Source: Anaerolineales bacterium (lineage in GTDB: Bacteria > Chloroflexota > Anaerolineae > Anaerolineales > DRMV01). From it: 33,271 nt of DNA. Both the position numbers and the translations under genes were made by a program. Each line of letters opens with the position of its first letter. Position 1 is the first letter of the stretch. Shown in pieces: positions 1-21,298 of this stretch. A model generated the notes under the pieces. The model searched no databases. It worked only from the letters and a program-made list of their open reading frames with translations, and had not been told where the DNA came from. Location: positions 1-33,271 of the forward strand of contig JALWJZ010000107.1 of NCBI GenBank assembly GCA_026996855.1, written 5' to 3'.

Positions 1-1664
1 GCGCTGGCCCCCGCGGCCAAACCGATGGGATTGAGCCCGGCATCCACCAGCGTGCAGGTCACGATGTGCGTACCGGCATCATAGGAACAATCCCACGGCG
101 CGCCGGTAGGCGCGGAATCGAAACTCTCTGACCCCGAAAGATGGTCCTGCACGACGATGGGCGCCGACGCGTCTACGGGGCCGTCGTTGCGCACATGGAT
201 GGTGTTGGTGATGGCACCGCCCACGGCCACGGGGTTGGGCGCCTTGTCCTTTTGCAAGACCAGATCGGGCGCGCTGGGCTTGACCTCGTAAGTCACCGAG
301 GCGGTGTTGTTGTCGGTGATGGGGTCCGGGGGATTGTCCGGCGAGATGGTCGCGGTATTGGTGTGATTTTCGATGCTGGTGACATTGGGCACATCCACAT
401 CCAGGACGATGTCACCGGCTTCGCCGTTGGCCATCAGGGCCTTGGTGCAGGTCACCGTGCCCGTAACGGGCGGCGTCGGGCAATTCCATCCGGCCGGCGC
501 GGTGATGTTGGTGACGGTGTAGCCGGCCGGCAGGGTATCGGTCACGGTGACATTGGTAACATCCCGAGGGCCCAGGTTTTCCACATGCAGCGTAAAGGTG
601 GCCGTCGTTCCCCCCAGCACCGGGGAAGGCGTCACGGCCTTGGTGATGGACAGGTCCGAGCCGGGTGTAATCTCCAGAGTAGCCTGGCTGGTATTGTTGT
701 TGGGGTCCGGGTCCAGGGTGGGGTCGAAGGGCGGCGCGACGATGCCGACATCCGCGTTGTTGATGAAGGTACCGTCAGAGCCGGCGTCGGCCTTGGCGCG
801 GAAATGGAAAATCATGGTGTCGCCGTTTGCGAACTCCCCGCCCGCGTTCTCGTCGTAGGTGCAGGTGACGGCCTGGCCCGAAGCCGAGCAGGTCCACAGG
901 CTGTCGTCATCCGCGGCCGGGTCCGCGTCGTCGGCATAGAAAATCACGCCCACCGGGAGGGTGTCGTGGAATTCCAGGTCCGGCGCGGGTCGTGGGCCCG
1001 CGTTGTCCAGTTGGATGGTATAGGTCACAATGCCCGAGTCGGCCACGGAAGTGGGGTTCACCGTCTTGGTCAACTGAATGTCCGCGCCCTTGCGCACGGT
1101 GGTCTGGTTGTTCTCGCTGTCGTTGGCCGAGTTCACATCGCCCGTGCAGGTCGTCGTGGCCGTGCTGGTATACGTGCCCGTGCCCACAGGGGCCTGCACA
1201 TCCATCGTCACGATGGCGACCTCGAGGGGGCCCAAATCGATGCCCGTGCACTGCAAATAATCGCCGGTGCCGTCACTGGGGTTGTCACCCACATAGGAGC
1301 ATGTGCCGTGATCGGTGGTATGGCCCAGGTAGGTGAAACCCGCGGGGACGGTGATGGTCAACTGCCCACCGGTCACATTGTCGCCCGCAATGGCGCTGTT
1401 GTTCTTCATGTGTACGGTGTAGGTTACCGTACCGGTTTCGGCCACGGGATCGGGGTCGTCGGTGAAGACCACCGGCTGGCAGTCTACGCCGGGATTAGCA
1501 ACAGGCCGAGGAGCATCCGAGGCTCGCACCGTACGCACGGCCTGGGCCAAACCCAGAGTCAACAGCAACAGCGCCAGGGTCACCAGGCCCAAACGCCGCA
1601 GCGGCACATGGGTCATCCCTCGCGTGAAATTCATCACGCTTTCCTTTTCACGGGTTGCGGGCAT
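1..1664 (-). CDS. Secreted DUF11-repeat surface protein (3' end outside window)
   Basis: Reading the minus strand from about 1664 gives an open frame to the window edge with no stop, so the C-terminal part is missing. The N-terminus has a basic stretch followed by a hydrophobic core (LVTLALLLLTLGLAQA), a signal peptide. The rest is a string of beta-rich modules with the DUF11 / conserved-repeat signature: 'TVTYTVHMKN', 'IVTYTIQLDNAGP', 'TATFTLHVENLGPRDVTN' and 'DTLPAGYTV', each about 110-130 residues and rich in T, D, N, V and G. Such proteins are typically exported cell-surface or envelope proteins; the exact role is unknown. Two in-frame starts are plausible: ATG at 1664 (GGAGAG seven bases upstream) and ATG at 1634 (AAGGAA upstream). 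I prefer 1664 because it lies about 42 nt below a good promoter. A long frame on the opposite strand is a shadow of this gene. Confidence 0.85.
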   Translation of the reverse strand, partial: MPATREKESVMNFTRGMTHVPLRRLGLVTLALLLLTLGLAQAVRTVRASDAPRPVANPGVDCQPVVFTDDPDPVAETGTVTYTVHMKNNSAIAGDNVTGGQLTITVPAGFTYLGHTTDHGTCSYVGDNPSDGTGDYLQCTGIDLGPLEVAIVTMDVQAPVGTGTYTSTATTTCTGDVNSANDSENNQTTVRKGADIQLTKTVNPTSVADSGIVTYTIQLDNAGPRPAPDLEFHDTLPVGVIFYADDADPAADDDSLWTCSASGQAVTCTYDENAGGEFANGDTMIFHFRAKADAGSDGTFINNADVGIVAPPFDPTLDPDPNNNTSQATLEITPGSDLSITKAVTPSPVLGGTTATFTLHVENLGPRDVTNVTVTDTLPAGYTVTNITAPAGWNCPTPPVTGTVTCTKALMANGEAGDIVLDVDVPNVTSIENHTNTATISPDNPPDPITDNNTASVTYEVKPSAPDLVLQKDKAPNPVAVGGAITNTIHVRNDGPVDASAPIVVQDHLSGSESFDSAPTGAPWDCSYDAGTHIVTCTLVDAGLNPIGLAAGAS

Positions 1665-5398: not shown

Positions 5399-8300
5399 TC
5401 AACACTCGCTATACCCACAGGCATAGCACTTGCGGCACCCTTCTTCGTTCACCATCGCGGCCTGGCCGCATTCGGGACACAGTTCGCCCGTCTTTCCCGC
5501 GGGAAAGGGGGAGCCCATCTCGCCGTTGCTTTTCTCGGAAGAAGAGGGGGAAAGCAACGGCAGATGGAAGGCCATCGTCCCCAGGGAAACCGCGCCTTCT
5601 TGCGCTTCCCTTTCCTCCCCTTCTCCTTCTCGCTTGGTGTCCAGGTACTGTTTCAACGCATGGGCCACGCCGTCGGGCAGGGAGCGAATGCGGTAAGGGC
5701 CAAAGCCCAGGGGCCGGTCGCCGCCCAGGCCGCTCAACTGGCGGTACACCTCTTCCAGGCGTTCCAGCGGTTTCACCGGCGAGGAAAGCCGCAGGATAAA
5801 GGAGATGAGCCGGCCGATAGCCTCGGAGATGGCCGCGGTCTCGGACCCGGCCTTGGAGGTGTTGATGAAGACCTCGAAGGGCTGCCCCTCGCCGTTCTCG
5901 TTGATGGTGACGTAAGCCTTGCCCAGGGGGGTGTTCACCTGAACGGTCACCCCGGGCAGCACCGCGGGCCGGGGCTTCTTGGGCTCGGGCCAGAGGCGAG
6001 GTTGGTCGGGGATCGGCTGTTCGCCGTTGGCCGTTGGCCGTTCGCCTTCGGCGGTCGGCTGTCCGCCATCGGCTATCCGCTGTCCGCTGTCGGCTAACTG
6101 CTGTCTGCTATCTGCTAACTGCTGCCCGCTATCTGCTTTCTTTTTGGCTGTCGCCGCGGTCTCCAGCACCACCTTCTCCCGGGAGCCGGTCACGTACACC
6201 GTCAAGCCCTTGCACCCCAGTTTCCAGGCCAGCAGGTAGGCCTTTTTAACGTCGTCCACCGTGGCGTCCGCGGGGAAGTTAATGGTCTTCGAGATACTGT
6301 TGTCGATAAACACTTGCAGCGCAGCCTGCATGTACACGTGCTCTTCCGCGCTGATGTCGCCGGCCACCACGAAGGTGTGGCGGATGTGTTCGGGCAGGCG
6401 GCCGGGATAGTTCTGGATGGTGCCGTACTCCAACACGTGCTGGATGACGGCCTCTTTCTCCTCCTCGCTCAGGTCGCTTTCGTTCAGGGCCTTCATGAAC
6501 AGGGGGCTGACGTAGCGCAGGCGGATGCGCTTGCCGTCCTCGTCGTTGACGTAGCGGTAATAGGCCAGGGCGAACACGGGCTCGCACCCGTAGCCTTCCA
6601 CGCCGGAAACGGTGGATATTGTTCCGGTAGGTGCAATGGTCAACTGGGCCGCGTTGCGGATGCCGTGCTTCCTGATGCCCTCCACGATTTCGTTCCAGTC
6701 CAGTTCGGGGCGGCCCCAATCGGTCTGCGGACCGCCGCCCAGCCAGTCGGGCCAGGTGGGCGGCTTCCATTTGAGGTTCTCCGGGTCGTAGATGCTGCCC
6801 TTGATGCCGGGGAAGGGCCCCCGCTCCCGGGCCAGTTCGATGCTGGTTTTCATGGCATGGAAGCGGATGAATTCCATGATTTGGGCCGCGAACTCCTGGG
6901 CCTCCCTGGAGCCGTAGCGGATGCCGTTGATGTACATCAGGTCGGCCAGGCCCATGATGCCCAGGCCGATGCGGCGGTTGCGGTGCGCGGCCTCTTTGAG
7001 TTGCGGCACCGCAGGCACGTACTGGTTGGCCTGCACCACATCGTCCAGGAAGCGCACCGCGCGGCGCACGGTATCGGCCAGTTTCTCCCAATCCACACCG
7101 CCCTCGGGGGTGGCGTGTCTGGCCAGGTTGATGGAACCCAGGCAACAGTTCTCATAGGGACCCAACCATTGTTCACCGCAGTTATGGCAGACCAGGCCGT
7201 TGGCAATCAGGCTGTGGGTCTCGGGCTCTTCTAAGTCGTAAACATCCGCAAAACCCGCGGGTTCGATGCTTTCGATTTCGTCCTCAAAGGTCTCTCGGTA
7301 GGGGCCCCGGGTCTGGCTTTCCACGAAGGCCAGGAGTTTGGCCTGCTTTTCCGCGTCGGCAAAGCCAATGACCTGGGCAAAGCGGTCCCGGTTCTCCCGG
7401 CCGATGACCAATTCGTACTGGGCCGCCACTTCGTAAAGCCGCAGGCCGCCGCGGCCATCGGGCAGCCGGTGCACGCCGGCCTCGCGGCGTCGGTAAATCC
7501 GGGAGACGATGCCAAAGTTGAGCAGCAAGAGTTGCACATCTTCCAGCAGTTTGCGGGAGGAACTGGCCAGGCGCACGGTGCAATCCCGCTTGTGGGGCTG
7601 CACCTGGACCGTGCCATCGGCCGAAAACAGGCCCTGCAGAAAGCCCACCACGGCTTCCCGCGGCGCGCGCCAGATGGCTTCAGGGACCCGTTTCTCCGTG
7701 GCCCGTACGGGCTGCACCCCCAGGGAGCGGAAGAATTCGAAAGCCAGACGGCCGTAGGTCACCTGGTAATGGGAATTGCGCGAGGTCACGTGCCCTTCGC
7801 CGAACCACCCGCGCAACAGGCCATGGATGCGCTTGACCTCTTCCTGCGTGCGCAAGGCAAACCCGACGGGCGAGTTGCTGCTTTCGCTCAGCCAGCCATC
7901 CCCGACGAGGTATCCCAACACCAACCCCAGTTCGTGAGACCACTTGCGGGGCAGGCCGCCCCGAAGCGCGGTGAAATCCCGCCGTTGCACCACATGCCCC
8001 GAAGCGCGGTCGCCGGCCAGGGCCATCCCGGCCAATACTTGCTCCAAGGCCTCCTGGTTGGGCAGATTGTCGTCCTGGCTCCAGGCCCCTTCGCCGGATT
8101 GGAGCAGCACCCGGTCGCCGGGCCGCAGGTGCTGCAATTCCACATACCCCCGGTCGGGAGTCAGGAAAGGATGGTCCGCGGTGGCCGTAACCGTATAGCC
8201 CTTGCGGGTGCGCAAGCGGAATACGGGCACCTGTTCCCGGGTCTTGAAGGCCCGCACCCCGGAGCGCAAGCGGGTACCCAGGGTCTTGCCCGCCTCGCCG

Positions 8301-9379
8301 ATGCCGCCCAGGGGCGCGCGGTTATCGGTCACAATGCTGAAGGTTTCCCCGGACTCCGCGAGTTCACGGATGGGAATCAGCCCCCTGGCCGTGGCAATGC
8401 GGGTTTCCCCCACAAAGCAGGGGTTGGTGGCCTCCAGCCGGTACTGATGGGGCACCGGGTTGTCCCGGTTGGCCCGGTCGAGGAAGAGCACGCCCGGCTC
8501 GCCGTTGTGGTGGGCCTGGCGGGCGATTTTCTCGAAAAGGTCCCGGGCCCGCACCTTCTTGTAGACCTTGATGGGAATCCCCTGCTCCCGCGCGTCCTCC
8601 AGGGTGCCGTCGAAGTCGTCGTATTCCGGCGCGGTCACGTCGGGGAAGACCAGTTCCCATTCCTCGTCCTTCTCCACCGCGCGCATGAAGGCGTCGGTGA
8701 TGCCCACGGATATGTTGAAATTCGTGATGGCGTTCTCGTCCGTCTTGCAGGTGATGAATTCTTCCACGTCGGGATGGTCCACCCGCAGCACGGCCATGTT
8801 GGCCCCGCGTCTTGTTCCGCCCTGCGCAATCTCCCCAAAGGCGTGGTCGTACACCCGCAGGAAGCCCACCGGGCCCGTGGCCTTGCCCGCGGAGGACCTC
8901 ACCACCGTGCCCTTGGGTCGCAGGCGGGAAAAGGAAAACCCATTTCCCCCGCCCGTCTGCTGAATCAGGGCCGCGTTGCGCAAGGTGGAAAAGATACCTT
9001 CAGGGTCTTTACCCAAATCGTCTTTGATTTTGAGCACGAAGCACGCGGCGAGTTGGCCCAGAGGCGTGCCCGCGCCGGTCCAGGTGGGGGAATTGGGGTA
9101 GAAGAGGGTTTCGGCCAGCAGGCGGTAGAAGTCCTTGGCCCGCTCGATGACCTCTTCCTCGCTGGCGCCGAATTCCTTCTCGGCCTTGGCCACGTGGTAG
9201 GCCACCCGCCAGAAGGTCTCTTCCGGGGTTTCGATGGGCTTGCCGTCCAGGCCCTTGCGCACGTAGCGCTTGTAAAACACCAGTTTGGCGTTGTCGTTGG
9301 CAAACTGGATGTTGGGCAAATCCTCGGGTCGGGGCGGGGTGGGCAAAAGGCCCTTACGCGGAGCGGACACCTTCCCCAT
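5399..9379 (-). CDS. nrdJ: Vitamin B12-dependent (class II) ribonucleotide reductase precursor with intein
   Basis: A 1326-residue precursor; removing a 413-residue intein (residues 321-733) leaves 913 residues, normal for NrdJ. It reduces ribonucleotides to deoxyribonucleotides using adenosylcobalamin to make a thiyl radical. Visible features are the first active-site cysteine in 'QLAACFVLK' (C113), '[16 protein letters not shown]', '[12 protein letters not shown]', the finger-loop motif NP-[intein]-CGEQ, where the C (precursor residue 734) is the thiyl-radical cysteine and the following Glu the proton acceptor, '[11 protein letters not shown]' and '[19 protein letters not shown]'. The C-terminal tail holds a domain with 'CPECG' and '[12 protein letters not shown]', a zinc/redox cysteine cluster. 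There is no N-terminal ATP-cone. A linker at residues 1082-1123 is made of six heptad repeats. GGAGG lies seven bases before ATG 9379. It is transcribed with nrdR, whose stop is 35 nt upstream. Confidence 0.97.
6011..6136 (-). repeat. Six 21-bp units inside nrdJ, coding an ADSGQQL-type heptad
   Basis: Precursor residues 1082-1123 read [35 protein letters not shown] and ANGEQPI, that is six in-phase 21-bp units. The units use TTA, ATA and AGA, codons rare in this GC-rich window. They fall in the linker between the catalytic barrel and the C-terminal domain, where an insertion is likely tolerated. Confidence 0.85.
7181..8419 (-). mobile_element. Intein with LAGLIDADG homing endonuclease in nrdJ
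   Basis: 413 residues in frame. Splicing blocks: A '[17 protein letters not shown]' with catalytic Cys1; B '[14 protein letters not shown]' with the TxxH motif (T80, H83); C '[14 protein letters not shown]' and E '[14 protein letters not shown]', the two LAGLIDADG helices with their acidic residues D174 and D268 intact; and F/G '[13 protein letters not shown]'...'NGLVCHN', ending in His412-Asn413. The +1 extein residue is Cys. All residues needed for splicing and for double-strand cleavage by a homing endonuclease appear present. It sits between Pro and the thiyl-radical Cys of the NPCGE motif, so the unspliced enzyme must be inactive. Confidence 0.95.
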
Positions 9380-16703: not shown

Positions 16704-17417
16704 TCACGCGGCTTCCTCGTCGGGGAACCAGGGGGGATTATCCAGGCGCACCCCCTGGCCCCGCACGGTAACGATGTACGTGTGGTCCGGGTCGTACTCG
16801 GCCAGGCGCTCCCGCAAGCGGTGGAGCAACGCGTCCAGGGCCGGCTGAGTGACCCAGAGGGATTCCTTCCCCCAAATGACCTCCACCAGGGTGGCCCGGG
16901 GCACCACCTGGCCTTGATGTTCGTACAACACCGAAAGCAACCGAAATTGCTGGCGGGAGAGGGGCGGCTCGATCTCCTTCCCCAGAACCCAAACACGATG
17001 CGCGAGCAGGTCCATGCGAAGGCGTCGGGGCCATTCCTCGTCTTCGGAGACCTGCGCCGCGGCCTGGTCCACCGGTAGGGTAAGGGTTTCGCCCGGCCCC
17101 ACCAAAACGAAGCGCTGGGCCAGCGCCAAAACCAGAGTGTCCCCCTCTTTCAACTTGCGGGGCTTGCCCGGTTCCAGGCGCTCCCCGTTGACGAAGGTGC
17201 CGTTCTTGCTGCCCAGGTCCTCCACCCACACGTCGCGGCCTTCGGGATAGACCCGAGCATGGCGGCGGGAAACCTGCCGGGTGGGCACCACGATGTCGCA
17301 CTTGGGGTCCCGGCCCAGGACCAAAGCGCGGTCGATGGTCCAACGCTGCTGGTCCAACGTACCGCCCAGGGCCAAAAGCACGGGAAGCAAACCGGAAGTA
17401 TGGAGTGCTTGGGTCAT
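16704..17417 (-). CDS. FHA-winged-helix regulator
   Basis: A protein of 237 residues with two domains. Residues about 27-105 are a forkhead-associated domain, which binds phosphothreonine peptides: 'LVLGRDPKCDIVVP' (conserved GR), 'VSRRHARVY' (SxxH) and 'DLGSKNGTFVNGERL'. Residues about 130-230 are an OmpR/PhoB-type winged helix: 'LSRQQFRLLSVLYEHQGQVV', 'LVEVIWG', 'LDALLHRLRERLAE' and 'YIVTVRGQGVRL'. It lacks a receiver domain, so input probably comes through phosphothreonine recognition from a Ser/Thr kinase, none of which is in the window. ATG 17417 overlaps the stop of the Cas4-like gene (ATGA), so the two are translationally coupled. The target genes are unknown; control of its own cluster is an inference. 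Confidence 0.9.
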   Translation of the reverse strand: MTQALHTSGLLPVLLALGGTLDQQRWTIDRALVLGRDPKCDIVVPTRQVSRRHARVYPEGRDVWVEDLGSKNGTFVNGERLEPGKPRKLKEGDTLVLALAQRFVLVGPGETLTLPVDQAAAQVSEDEEWPRRLRMDLLAHRVWVLGKEIEPPLSRQQFRLLSVLYEHQGQVVPRATLVEVIWGKESLWVTQPALDALLHRLRERLAEYDPDHTYIVTVRGQGVRLDNPPWFPDEEAA

Positions 17418-17962
17418 GATGCCTCATCCAAACGAAAGGTGCAGTAGTCACGGTAACCGCATTGGCGACAGCGTTGCACCGAACGATGCGAAGGTCCGGG
17501 TGGCGTCCCACGCCGTGCCTGTTCATGCATGCGTTCCAAAAGATGGATGAGCGAGGCGCGACGCTCCGCGGTGAAAGGGATGGCGAAGGTGCGCTCGGGG
17601 TAGCGGATGACCACATACGGCACCCGCTTTCCCTTCACCCGCTCCAGGAGCAGCCCGTAGGCCAGGGCCTGGTATACATGCCCCTCGTACGGCCTTTGCG
17701 GGGTTCGCCCCGATTTTACCTCAACCGGCACCCATTCGTCGGACGAAAGGGCCACGACGTAATCGGGTTTGCCCGACAGGTTCAGCGAAGCATCGTACAA
17801 AGGTTGTTTCCAGGGGCGCAGGTCGCCATCGGTGAAAAGCACCTGAGCCGAGGGCAAACCGCTTTTGCGCTGGCCCCGCAGGCTCCACCACCACAACACC
17901 CCAGCCAGGAGCAAGGTCAGCAGCGCGGCCAGCAGCCATCCATCGGCCATGATGCTCGGCAT
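17414..17962 (-). CDS. Cas4-like PD-(D/E)XK nuclease, C-terminal catalytic part with membrane helix
   Basis: About 182 residues. It opens with a membrane helix ('WLLAALLTLLLAGVLWWWSL'), then a RecB/Cas4-type nuclease core: 'GKPDYVVAL' with the metal-binding Asp, 'WVPVEVKSGRTP' with the ExK pair, and 'HVYQALAYGLLLE' with the QxxxY-type helix. The C-terminal 'CRQCGYRDYC' gives three cysteines of the Cas4 iron-sulfur cluster. The fourth cysteine, expected near the N-terminus, lies in the preceding ORF (17990-18238). The two ORFs are in the same reading frame, separated by one TAA and nine codons, so together they make one complete Cas4-like protein with a transmembrane hairpin. The ATG at 17962 has GGAG only two bases before it, a poor start, so independent translation is doubtful. 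Confidence 0.8.
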   Translation of the reverse strand: MPSIMADGWLLAALLTLLLAGVLWWWSLRGQRKSGLPSAQVLFTDGDLRPWKQPLYDASLNLSGKPDYVVALSSDEWVPVEVKSGRTPQRPYEGHVYQALAYGLLLERVKGKRVPYVVIRYPERTFAIPFTAERRASLIHLLERMHEQARRGTPPGPSHRSVQRCRQCGYRDYCTFRLDEAS

Positions 17963-17989
17963 CGCTCCAAACCCGTGCCAGGGAGGCTT

Positions 17990-18238
17990 TTACCCCAAAA
18001 CCCGGAGCAAACCGGCCATCAGGAACAACACCAGGGCCAGCGCCAACAACCCTTGCGCCCACCGACGCAGGGTCAGCCATCGGCGCACGCCTCGCACGTG
18101 GGCCTGATGGTAGGCAAAGCCCTCGGCCAATCGCGCCCGATGCCGAGGTGCATACCCCTGCCGGCGCAGCCACCAGGCCTGTTCACAGTACACGTATTCG
18201 GCCAAATCCGAAGCCCGAATGCGGGCATTCCGGGCCAC
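17990..18238 (-). CDS. N-terminal part of the membrane Cas4-like nuclease (ends at in-frame TAA)
   Basis: 82 residues from a GTG start at 18238 with GGAGG six bases upstream. It contains 'IRASDLAEYVYCEQAWWLRR', which matches the N-terminal cysteine motif of Cas4/Dna2-type nucleases (YCxxxxWL, first cluster cysteine), and 'LAEGFAYHQAH', the conserved GxxxH helix. It ends in a membrane helix ('GLLALALVLFLMAGLLRVLG') directly before TAA (17990-17992). After the TAA the same frame continues with nine codons into ATG 17962 of the catalytic part. This may be a nonsense mutation, a sequencing error, read-through, or a true two-subunit arrangement. It lies 37 nt after the translin-family gene. Confidence 0.75.
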   Translation of the reverse strand: MARNARIRASDLAEYVYCEQAWWLRRQGYAPRHRARLAEGFAYHQAHVRGVRRWLTLRRWAQGLLALALVLFLMAGLLRVLG

Positions 18239-18275: not shown

Positions 18276-18947
18276 TCAGGCCTTCCCATCCCGGGCGTCA
18301 CGTTCCCGGCCCTCCAGAACCTGCTGCAAAGCATACAACCGGCGGCTCAAGGTGAGTTCGCCTCGGGTTCGCTCAATCTGGCCCCGCACCTGGTCCGTCC
18401 AACGGCGCAGGCCGCCGGTGATGGCATCGGGGTAATCCATGGTGACCAGCACGCCGTAAATGGCGTCCATGTGCTCCAACAGGGTCTCCACCTGGGGGGA
18501 ATAATCGTGGCGGAGCAGGTCCAGACAGCGTCGGCGCAGTTCGCCTACAGCCTCGGCCAGTCCTCGCACGTAAGTGGAAGCCGGCACCCCCAATTCTTCC
18601 GGCGTGGGGTAAGTACCCTCGGTGAGCAACCGGTAGACCACCGACGCTTCCACGAACTCCTTGAGTGCGTCCTGGGTGTAACCCGCGTAGTAGAGGTCGG
18701 GGAAACGGGACGCCAGGTCCTGCTGAGACTCCTGCACCAGCGCGCGAGCCTGCTCCAACAAGGTTTTAGCCCGTTCGTAATCCCCTCGGTGCAAGGCCTG
18801 GATGGTCTGGGCGGCGTAACGGGTCAACAAACGGGAGCGTTGCAGGGCTTGCTCGCGGGCCTGGTTGCGCATTTCAAAATCGGCGTGCAATTGGGCGGCG
18901 ATGGTTTCCAGTTCCACCCCCGGCCTCCCCCAAGCAGCGTGGCTCAT
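18276..18947 (-). CDS. Translin-family protein (COG2178)
   Basis: About 223 residues, almost entirely helical. The pattern 'ALHRGDYERAKTLLEQARAL', 'YYAGYTQDALKEFVEAS', 'PTPEELGVPASTYVRGLAEA', 'VGELRRRCLDLLRHDYSPQV', 'LLEHMDAIYGVLVTMDYPDA' and 'QIERTRGELTLS' follows the prokaryotic translin/TRAX family. Eukaryotic members bind RNA and single-stranded DNA and, as C3PO, cleave RNA; the acidic residues in 'ALKEFVEA' and 'AVGELRRR' correspond to the positions used by TRAX. Prokaryotic members are often mislabelled as haloacid dehalogenase. The start is taken as ATG 18947 (GGGGAGGG upstream at long spacing); a GTG at 18968 is possible. It heads the cluster with the Cas4-like, FHA and radical SAM genes. 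Confidence 0.85.
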   Translation of the reverse strand: MSHAAWGRPGVELETIAAQLHADFEMRNQAREQALQRSRLLTRYAAQTIQALHRGDYERAKTLLEQARALVQESQQDLASRFPDLYYAGYTQDALKEFVEASVVYRLLTEGTYPTPEELGVPASTYVRGLAEAVGELRRRCLDLLRHDYSPQVETLLEHMDAIYGVLVTMDYPDAITGGLRRWTDQVRGQIERTRGELTLSRRLYALQQVLEGRERDARDGKA

Positions 18948-19000
18948 GCAGAACGACCCTCCCCACACCTGCTATGATAAGGAAAACGTGGCATCCCCTA

Positions 19001-19052: not shown

Positions 19053-19517
19053 CTAAAAGGGGATTTCCTCGTCCGCCGCGGGCAAATCGTCCACCGGCGC
19101 GGTGGGTGCGGAGGAAGAAGGCGTCGCCGGTCGGGGTACTTCCTGAATCCCTTCGGATTCGGACATTTCGCCCCGAGGTGTCAGGATGCGAATGACTTCG
19201 GCCCGCACCTCGTAGGAAGTGCCCACCGTGCCGTCGGAGCGGGTGAACATGCGAGGTTGTCCGGTGTTGGGGTCCGGCACAAGACGCCCTTCCACGTACA
19301 CCCGCATCCCTCGGCGCAGATATTGTTGCACGATGTCAGCCAGACGCCCCCAGGCCGAAACCCGGAACCAAATGGTTTCTTCCACCTGCTGCCCATCCTG
19401 GGTGGTATAGCGACGGTTGGCTGCCACGGTGAAAGAGGCCACCGGCGTACCCGAAGGGGTATAACGCAACTCAGGGTCCCGACCCAAATTCCCCAAAATG
19501 ATGATTTTGTGATACAT
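19053..19517 (-). CDS. ssb: Single-stranded DNA-binding protein
   Basis: 154 residues. SSB coats single-stranded DNA in replication and repair. The OB fold shows 'IIILGNLGRDPELRYTPSGT', 'VASFTVAANRRY', 'ETIWFRVSAWGRLADIVQQY' and 'GMRVYVEGRL'. A flexible Pro/Ser/Ala linker follows, and the acidic tip 'DEEIPF' that docks partner proteins. ATG 19517 is chosen over ATG 19523 because AGGAGG lies six bases upstream of it. It is divergent from elp3 and upstream of the translin-family gene. Confidence 0.97.
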   Translation of the reverse strand: MYHKIIILGNLGRDPELRYTPSGTPVASFTVAANRRYTTQDGQQVEETIWFRVSAWGRLADIVQQYLRRGMRVYVEGRLVPDPNTGQPRMFTRSDGTVGTSYEVRAEVIRILTPRGEMSESEGIQEVPRPATPSSSAPTAPVDDLPAADEEIPF

Positions 19518-19546
19518 CCTCATCCTCCTCCTGCAGACTAAAAATC

Positions 19547-19696: not shown

Positions 19697-21298
19697 ATGC
19701 AAGTACGACAACGCACCCTCGAGGTGACCGAGATTTTTCCCATTGCCCGGCAGGCCCTGGAGGCCATCCGCGCCGGCATGGACGTGGAGCGGGCCATCCG
19801 CAAACACCCGCTTCCCCGCGGGTATTTGAGCAAACCCATGCTCCTGGCCGTGTACCGGGAACTGGTGCGCCGGGGTGAATGGCGAGAGGATCCCGGCCTG
19901 GTCAAACGCCTGCGCCTCAAGCCGGTACGCTCCCTTTCAGGGGTTACCGTGGTCACCGTGCTCACCAAACCCTATCCCTGCCCCGGGGAGTGCATCTTCT
20001 GCCCCACCGACGTGCGCATGCCCAAGAGTTATTTACCGGAAGAGCCCGGCGCCCAACGGGCCTTGCAACACCAATTCGACCCCTTTGCCCAGGTGCGGGC
20101 CCGCATCGAGGCTCTGGAAGCCGTGGGGCACCCTACCAACAAAATCGAAATGCTCATCCTGGGCGGCACCTGGGATGCCTACCCCAGGCCGTATCAGGCC
20201 TGGTTCGTGCGCCGGCTCTTCGACGCCTTGAACCAACGGCCCGCGGCCACCCTGGAAGAAGCCCACACGCTGAACGAGGTGGCCCGACACCGCAACGTGG
20301 GCCTGGTCATCGAAACCCGGCCCGACTGGGTGACACCGGAACGCCTGCGCTGGTGGCGTGCTTTGGGGGTGACCAAGGTACAACTGGGCGTACAGAGCAT
20401 GGACGACCGCATCCTGGCCCTGAACAAACGAGGCCATACCGCCGAGGACGCGCGACGGGCCGTGGCCTTGCTCCGGGCTGCGGGGTTCAAAATCGTGGTG
20501 CACTGGATGCCCAACCTGCTGGGCGCGACGCCGGAAAGCGACCGGGAAGATTTCGCCCGGTTGTGGACGGACCTGGCCCCCGACGAACTCAAAATCTACC
20601 CCACACAACTGCTTCCCAACGCGGAACTGTACCACTACTGGCAACGGGGGGAATACCGCCCCTACACCACCGAAGAACTGGTGGACCTCGTTGCGGATGT
20701 GATGGCCACGGTGCCCGAATACTGCCGGGTGAATCGGGTCATCCGAGACATCCCCTCCACCTACGTGGTGGAAGGCAACAAGCGTACCAGCCTGCGCCAA
20801 GACGTGGAACGGGAGATGGCCCGCCGGGGCACCCGGTGCCGATGCATCCGCTGCCGAGAAGTGCGGGGCCGGCCCATCGACCCGCGCACCTTGAGCCTGC
20901 GGGACTTCACCTACACCACCGCCACTTCCGAAGAGCACTTTTTGCAATTCGTCACCCCTGACGACCGCCTGGCCGGTTTCCTGCGGCTTTCCCTGCCCCT
21001 ACCCCACGCGCCCGATGTGGGTATGGACGACCTGAAGGACGCGGCCATCATCCGCGAGGTACACGTTTACGGCCCTTCCCTGCCCGTGGGCCGGGACGAA
21101 CCCGGCGCGGCCCAGCACATCGGCCTGGGCACCCGGTTGCTCCAGGAGGCCGAGGGCATCGCGCGGGAAGCCGGTTTCCCGCGGCTGGCCGTCATCGCCG
21201 CGGTGGGTACCCGGCGCTACTACCTGGCCCGGGGCTTCCGCCGGGGGGCGTATTACCTGGTGAAGGATTTGCAGCGCGGCGGACGCGAAGTCGTTTAG
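19697..21298 (+). CDS. elp3: Elp3-like tRNA U34 modification enzyme
   Basis: 533 residues. Elp3 is a radical SAM enzyme fused to a GNAT acetyltransferase that starts carboxymethylation of wobble uridine-34 in tRNAs; bacterial and archaeal homologues work without the other Elongator subunits. The cluster motif is 'PYPCPGECIFCPTD' (C95, C99, C102; Cx3CxxC). 'EMLILGGTWDAYP', 'GLVIETRPDWVTPERL' and 'VTKVQLGVQSMDDRILALNK' are characteristic. A cysteine group near residue 381 ('RCRCIRCREV') is the zinc site, followed by 'HIREVHVYG'-type strands (here IIREVHVYGPSLPVG). The acetyl-CoA loop 'HIGLGTRLLQEAEGIA' lies near residue 475. ATG 19697 has only a weak upstream site. It is a single transcription unit, with no terminator seen. 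Confidence 0.95.
   Translation: MQVRQRTLEVTEIFPIARQALEAIRAGMDVERAIRKHPLPRGYLSKPMLLAVYRELVRRGEWREDPGLVKRLRLKPVRSLSGVTVVTVLTKPYPCPGECIFCPTDVRMPKSYLPEEPGAQRALQHQFDPFAQVRARIEALEAVGHPTNKIEMLILGGTWDAYPRPYQAWFVRRLFDALNQRPAATLEEAHTLNEVARHRNVGLVIETRPDWVTPERLRWWRALGVTKVQLGVQSMDDRILALNKRGHTAEDARRAVALLRAAGFKIVVHWMPNLLGATPESDREDFARLWTDLAPDELKIYPTQLLPNAELYHYWQRGEYRPYTTEELVDLVADVMATVPEYCRVNRVIRDIPSTYVVEGNKRTSLRQDVEREMARRGTRCRCIRCREVRGRPIDPRTLSLRDFTYTTATSEEHFLQFVTPDDRLAGFLRLSLPLPHAPDVGMDDLKDAAIIREVHVYGPSLPVGRDEPGAAQHIGLGTRLLQEAEGIAREAGFPRLAVIAAVGTRRYYLARGFRRGAYYLVKDLQRGGREVV

Follow-up and report, generated by a model that had tools for sequence, protein, structure and literature searches.

A putative two-chain, membrane-tethered Cas4-like nuclease in Chloroflexota

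Two adjacent genes on the minus strand of the window, i.e. the whole stretch of 33,271 nucleotides from an Anaerolineales bacterium analysed here, probably code for both subunits of a single enzyme. This would be an Fe-S nuclease that is tethered to the membrane and strictly requires two chains, hereafter A and B, between which both the cluster and the active site would be shared. The Cas4 nucleases known so far consist of a single chain. If the present reading is true, the pair would be a natural split nuclease whose cluster and active site are each built from two separately encoded membrane proteins, and it would offer a direct test of the control that an Fe-S staple exerts over assembly. 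The split form has been retained across a class and several other families of Chloroflexota, and suggests that this phylum has a DNA-processing function yet to be characterised.

The gene pair and its predicted fold

Gene A (17990-18238, minus strand) codes for 82 amino acids from a GTG start preceded by ACGGAGGG, and gene B (17414-17962, minus strand) for 182 amino acids from an ATG at 17962, with a possible alternative ATG at 17950. As the original prediction had it, and as is confirmed by the sequence and the ORF list, the two share one reading frame, the junction between them (17963-17992, minus strand) being made of the TAA stop of A (17990-17992) and nine codons (17989-17963). In homologues, this junction keeps its position and varies in frame and length. 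Seen again in hundreds of genomes, the arrangement is more than a chance juxtaposition.

The two chains cover complementary parts of the cas4 model TIGR00372. Chain A, which has a single cysteine (C18) and a single hydrophobic helix in the window sequence, matches positions 1-44 (E 1.7e-4), and its residues S10, C18, W22, G40, H44, and H47 are invariant in 45 aligned homologues, C18 corresponding to the first cluster cysteine and H44/H47 to the conserved histidines. Chain B displays one hydrophobic helix, the motifs GKPDY...PVEVK...QxxxY, and a Cx2Cx5C arrangement; it matches positions 60-179 with 72.5 bits (curated cut-off 65), and Pfam recognizes it as Cas_Cas4 (E 1.6e-9) and also as PDDEXK_1. 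A search of 207 loci with HMMs of both halves left 138 distinct ones in which A and B lie on one strand. In these 138 homologues, the D67, E81, K83, Q98, and Y102 residues of chain B, which make up a RecB-type PD-(D/E)XK motif (D, ExK, QxxxY), are conserved at 0.99-1.00, and C165, C168, and C174 are essentially invariant. The four cysteines of Cas4, one N-terminal and three C-terminal, are found solely across both chains, as C18 of A and C165/C168/C174 of B.

The uncovered TIGR00372 positions, 45-59, coincide with the site of the membrane hairpin. The predicted helix of chain A (residues 63-81; 17996-18052, minus strand; hydropathy 2.49 over 19 residues) would run N-in/C-out and that of chain B (residues 10-28; 17879-17935, minus strand; hydropathy 2.06) N-out/C-in, a hydrophobic helix being present in 138/138 and 137/138 homologues, respectively. 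The mean net charge of chain A is +2.8 before its helix and +0.3 after it, and that of chain B is about 0 before and +3.2 after. Judged by the positive-inside rule, the soluble parts of both chains are therefore predicted to be cytoplasmic and the junction to lie outside, which is also the place where a chain break is predicted to cost the fold least. These results agree with the original prediction, in which the stop fell in a loop outside the membrane, and its description of the cysteines, membrane helices, and D...ExK core in the two ORFs was correct as well.

In terms of structure, AlphaFold2 modelling of the A+B read-through (59 sequences) returned one confident Cas4 fold (pLDDT 91.5, pTM 0.87), although this model joins the chains artificially, so that the proximity of the halves in it is no independent proof of a complex. 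Its best PDB match in Foldseek is the type I-C Cas4 8d3l (276 alignment columns, E 9e-7), with weaker matches to AdnAB and EXO5. The model and the complementary TIGR00372 cover support the earlier claim that A and B jointly form a single Cas4 fold, in which a membrane hairpin separates the catalytic core from the region of the first cysteine.

With respect to assembly and topology, the Cas4 N-terminal part of chain A would be cytoplasmic and followed by one membrane crossing, while chain B would start outside, cross once, and end in a cytoplasmic nuclease domain. A hairpin would be formed by the helices of A and B, and their soluble parts would come together, on the cytoplasmic side of the membrane, as a single PD-(D/E)XK fold of the Cas4/RecB type. 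A single Fe-S cluster would be held by C18 of A together with C165, C168, and C174 of B and, being bound by cysteines of both chains, would pin A and B together. The active site would also come from both chains, with H44 of A joining D67, E81, K83, and Q98 of B, as a histidine does in RecB-family nucleases. Neither A nor B alone is expected to be an active, cluster-bearing nuclease, and the nuclease activity of the pair is suggested by analogy with Sso0001.

Gene structure, co-occurrence, and natural fusions

No match came from a single-sequence scan of the genome contigs, while a profile scan did find relatives. Matches were present in 16/18 genomes of the window's family and, with one genome per species in the order and class samples, in 155/201 genomes of its order and 215/298 Anaerolineae genomes (full profile), about 15 of the latter being weak, Cas4-like, or one-half only. 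The pair was also found in further Chloroflexota families outside Anaerolineae. When chain A and strong chain B matches were tallied in the 298 Anaerolineae genomes, 195 had both halves, 5 had B only, 3 had A only, and 95 had neither (Fisher p 2e-67, uncorrected for kinship, vertical inheritance making the co-occurrence less independent than the count implies). The co-occurrence of A and B is near-obligate, the genomes with one half only being drafts, and chain A is almost always present as a single copy. The viral contigs searched held no relative of the split pair, and the plasmids searched held ordinary Cas4/Dna2 proteins only, without the split pair.

The original prediction interpreted the locus as one gene interrupted by a stop. 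Taken by itself, the window would fit a pseudogene or an artefact, i.e. a single gene disrupted at 17990-17992 through a nonsense mutation or a sequencing error, as its halves are in frame with a lone stop between them. However, we regard this explanation as already refuted by the comparison with relatives, and its residual probability as negligible: in none of the 138 loci does a single ORF hold both halves, and with them the nuclease core together with the four cysteines, the two-gene layout is found throughout and outside the class, in many cases with A and B in different frames, overlapping, or unlinked, and all the key residues are intact in the window copy. More precisely, the junction of the 138 pairs falls between the two membrane helices, A and B overlap in 25 of them (18 by ATGA and 5 by one base), and the spacing is 0-30 nt in 85 pairs and more than 200 nt in six. 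An ATGA overlap is also seen in the cultured Anaerolinea thermolimosa IMO-1 (L107). Besides, A and B stand on separate contigs in five genomes of the window's family, and in G731 a single contig carries both at a distance of about 0.89 Mb. It could also be proposed that a programmed read-through of the stop gives one protein, the full-length product being minor. This is very improbable too: although A and B are in frame in 80/138 pairs, this set is biased toward such pairs by the higher scores of read-through matches, the frames differ in the other 58, and some pairs are separated by hundreds of bases or lie on different contigs. Furthermore, TGA, TAA, and TAG are all in use, and B mostly has its own ATG start (111/138). 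A Shine-Dalgarno scan gave no useful signal (17/138 for both chains vs a 7% background). Unbroken long matches in three genomes (G442, G182, and G205) turned out to be only apparent, the halves actually lying in different frames. Most probably, A and B are genuine separate genes, each for one subunit of the same enzyme, and neither sequencing error nor read-through is needed as an explanation.

Another possibility is that chain B is a working nuclease whose cluster is completed otherwise or absent, chain A being a separate membrane regulator that resembles the Cas4 N-terminus. In favor of this proposal, chain B by itself passes the cut-off of the Cas4 model, chain A is short, and five genomes have B with no detected A. 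Nevertheless, those one-half-only genomes are drafts in an otherwise near-complete co-occurrence, the cluster cysteine and the histidine of A are kept without exception in the 45 aligned homologues, and natural fusions link A to B in Cas4 order, all of which make the proposal unlikely and argue for the two-chain enzyme.

These natural fusions were sought at the family, order, class, and phylum level, and only three were found, all in family f87 (3/28 matching genomes; loci L188, L214, and L216), as ORFs of 330-379 aa. The one that was modelled has the hairpin and the core as in the window read-through (pLDDT 85.2). In the fusions, the catalytic Asp of GKPDY is replaced by T or A and the three C-terminal cysteines are kept; split sisters from the genus of two of the fusions (L233, L235, and L236) likewise lack the catalytic Asp and keep the cysteines. 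The loss of the former is a point against the two-chain nuclease. With the latter retained, A-B assembly appears to outlive ordinary catalysis in the fusions and their split sisters. In a fast tree of chain B, built on few columns, the fusions are nested among split relatives, and they therefore look like later re-fusions. According to the original prediction, homologues always encoded as two genes would refute it, and the comparison comes close to this outcome, with no single ORF in the 138 pairs and fusions in one family only. A bolder proposal, which we consider conceivable and still rather doubtful, is that the pair constitutes an ancient, phylum-wide, obligate two-chain membrane nuclease in which the inter-chain Fe-S cluster would act as an assembly lock, and possibly as a redox switch, the enzyme being on only when both proteins meet and having become a catalytically dead, cluster-bearing scaffold in one lineage.

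Genomic context and possible cellular role

The conserved gene order around the pair, taken here as the ancestral one, is ssb - DUF3467 - translin-like - A - B - nadK - B-box membrane protein - recN. Among 80 named loci, of which only those with enough flank were scored for a given neighbor, nadK is near the pair in 63/75, recN in 45/52, the translin-like gene in 35/72, and ssb in 29/60. The adjacency of nadK and recN is general among bacteria and is therefore weak evidence of function. The window retains the translin-like gene directly upstream of A (18276-18968, minus strand; PF01997 below cut-off in this copy and above it in a homologue) and, upstream of A as well, the ssb gene for the single-strand DNA-binding protein (19053-19523, minus strand; PF00436 E 4.5e-30). 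On the 3' side of B, and overlapping its end by ATGA, sits a gene with FHA and winged-helix DNA-binding domains according to Pfam (16704-17417, minus strand), a lineage-specific neighbor found near the pair in 4/80 named loci.

Three side observations concern the annotation of the window. The NCBI models for the family of the translin-like protein (18276-18968) bear the name 'haloacid dehalogenase superfamily', apparently a misnomer. Divergent from ssb, the gene at 19697-21298 (plus strand) encodes a bacterial Elp3-type tRNA uridine(34) radical SAM/GNAT enzyme (TIGR01211, 484.7 bits). At 5399-9379 (minus strand) lies the gene of a B12-dependent ribonucleotide reductase; its matches are interrupted at about residues 321-733, a gap with weak matches to intein-bearing DnaB and IF-2 models that is probably an intein.

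Regarding CRISPR, the original prediction held that no cas1, cas2, or array was present and that the locus was not one of CRISPR adaptation. The first statement stands for the window, where no cas1, cas2, or repeat array was found, but another contig of the genome (C108; L240, G000:C108) carries an array at about 12-410, with at least 6 copies of a CRISPR-like repeat about 75 bases apart, a Cas4 gene at 701-1419 (minus strand), and cas1 at 2027-2902. That Cas4 is of the ordinary one-chain type, and its position beside cas1 and the array indicates that the split pair is not the CRISPR Cas4 of this genome. The second statement is right: cas1 was found in 10/21 relatives and went undetected in several that carry the pair. 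Rather than cas1 or cas2, the neighbors of the pair are ssb, the translin-like gene, and the FHA gene or nadK and recN. In two other genomes of the window's family (G001 and G004; L029 and L028), a one-chain Cas4 lies beside cas1 in addition to the split pair.

The cellular role is the weakest step of the explanation. From the gene order with RecN and SSB, DNA-end processing in repair or recombination is tentatively placed first, at somewhat below even probability. No helicase is fused to the pair or found among its conserved neighbors, as an SF1 helicase would be in AddAB or AdnAB. Over-cut-off matches to AddA were absent from 31 relatives, which gave UvrD-like matches only, and a substitute role for AddAB is therefore possible. 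Ranked second, and clearly less probable, the same two-chain enzyme may degrade DNA entering across the membrane (phage, plasmid, or transformation). The membrane tether and the predicted cytoplasmic orientation of the nuclease would suit this function, and defence or repair roles have been proposed for solo-Cas4 proteins (PMC5704561). However, the pair is mostly single copy, occurs in many families, and lies by nadK, recN, and ssb rather than by defence genes; in addition, PADLOC gives Cas4-type and related nuclease models only.

Comparison with known systems

The CRISPR-associated Cas4 proteins, such as the type I-C Cas4 (PDB 8d3l), provide the best match to the split pair in both sequence and fold, but they are single soluble chains encoded beside cas1. 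Chain B alone passes TIGR00372, so that annotation with this model will probably call a CRISPR protein what is half of an enzyme. Sso0001 (PDB 4ic1), a 5'-3' exonuclease that acts on ssDNA and depends on Mg and on its active-site Asp, resembles the pair by its four-cysteine Fe-S cluster, its RecB-type active site, and its gene lying away from CRISPR loci (PMC3466216), whereas it is a single chain devoid of membrane helices. The same four-cysteine staple is found in AddB (PMC3466216). The nuclease domains of AddB, AdnAB, and EXO5 are, like the split pair, RecB-type Fe-S nucleases, but they occur as single chains or helicase fusions without a membrane anchor, and the split pair has no adjacent helicase gene.

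The open-access literature searched, a scope outside which most subscription papers and preprints fall, yielded no description of a split Cas4. Hudaiberdiev et al. 2017 (PMC5704561) described the presence of solo-Cas4 (COG1468, pfam01930) in many Chloroflexi, and term searches of the main text of that paper return nothing on a split or on membrane anchoring. What these authors counted as Chloroflexi solo-Cas4 was probably chain B. The two have the nuclease core in common and both lie outside CRISPR loci. Yet solo-Cas4 is described there as one protein and all Cas4 members are said to have four conserved cysteines, whereas in the split pair a second gene carries the first cysteine and the histidine, and a membrane anchor is predicted for each chain. 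The split pair is consequently filed as a variant of solo-Cas4, set apart by a core and four cysteines that are distributed over two chains.
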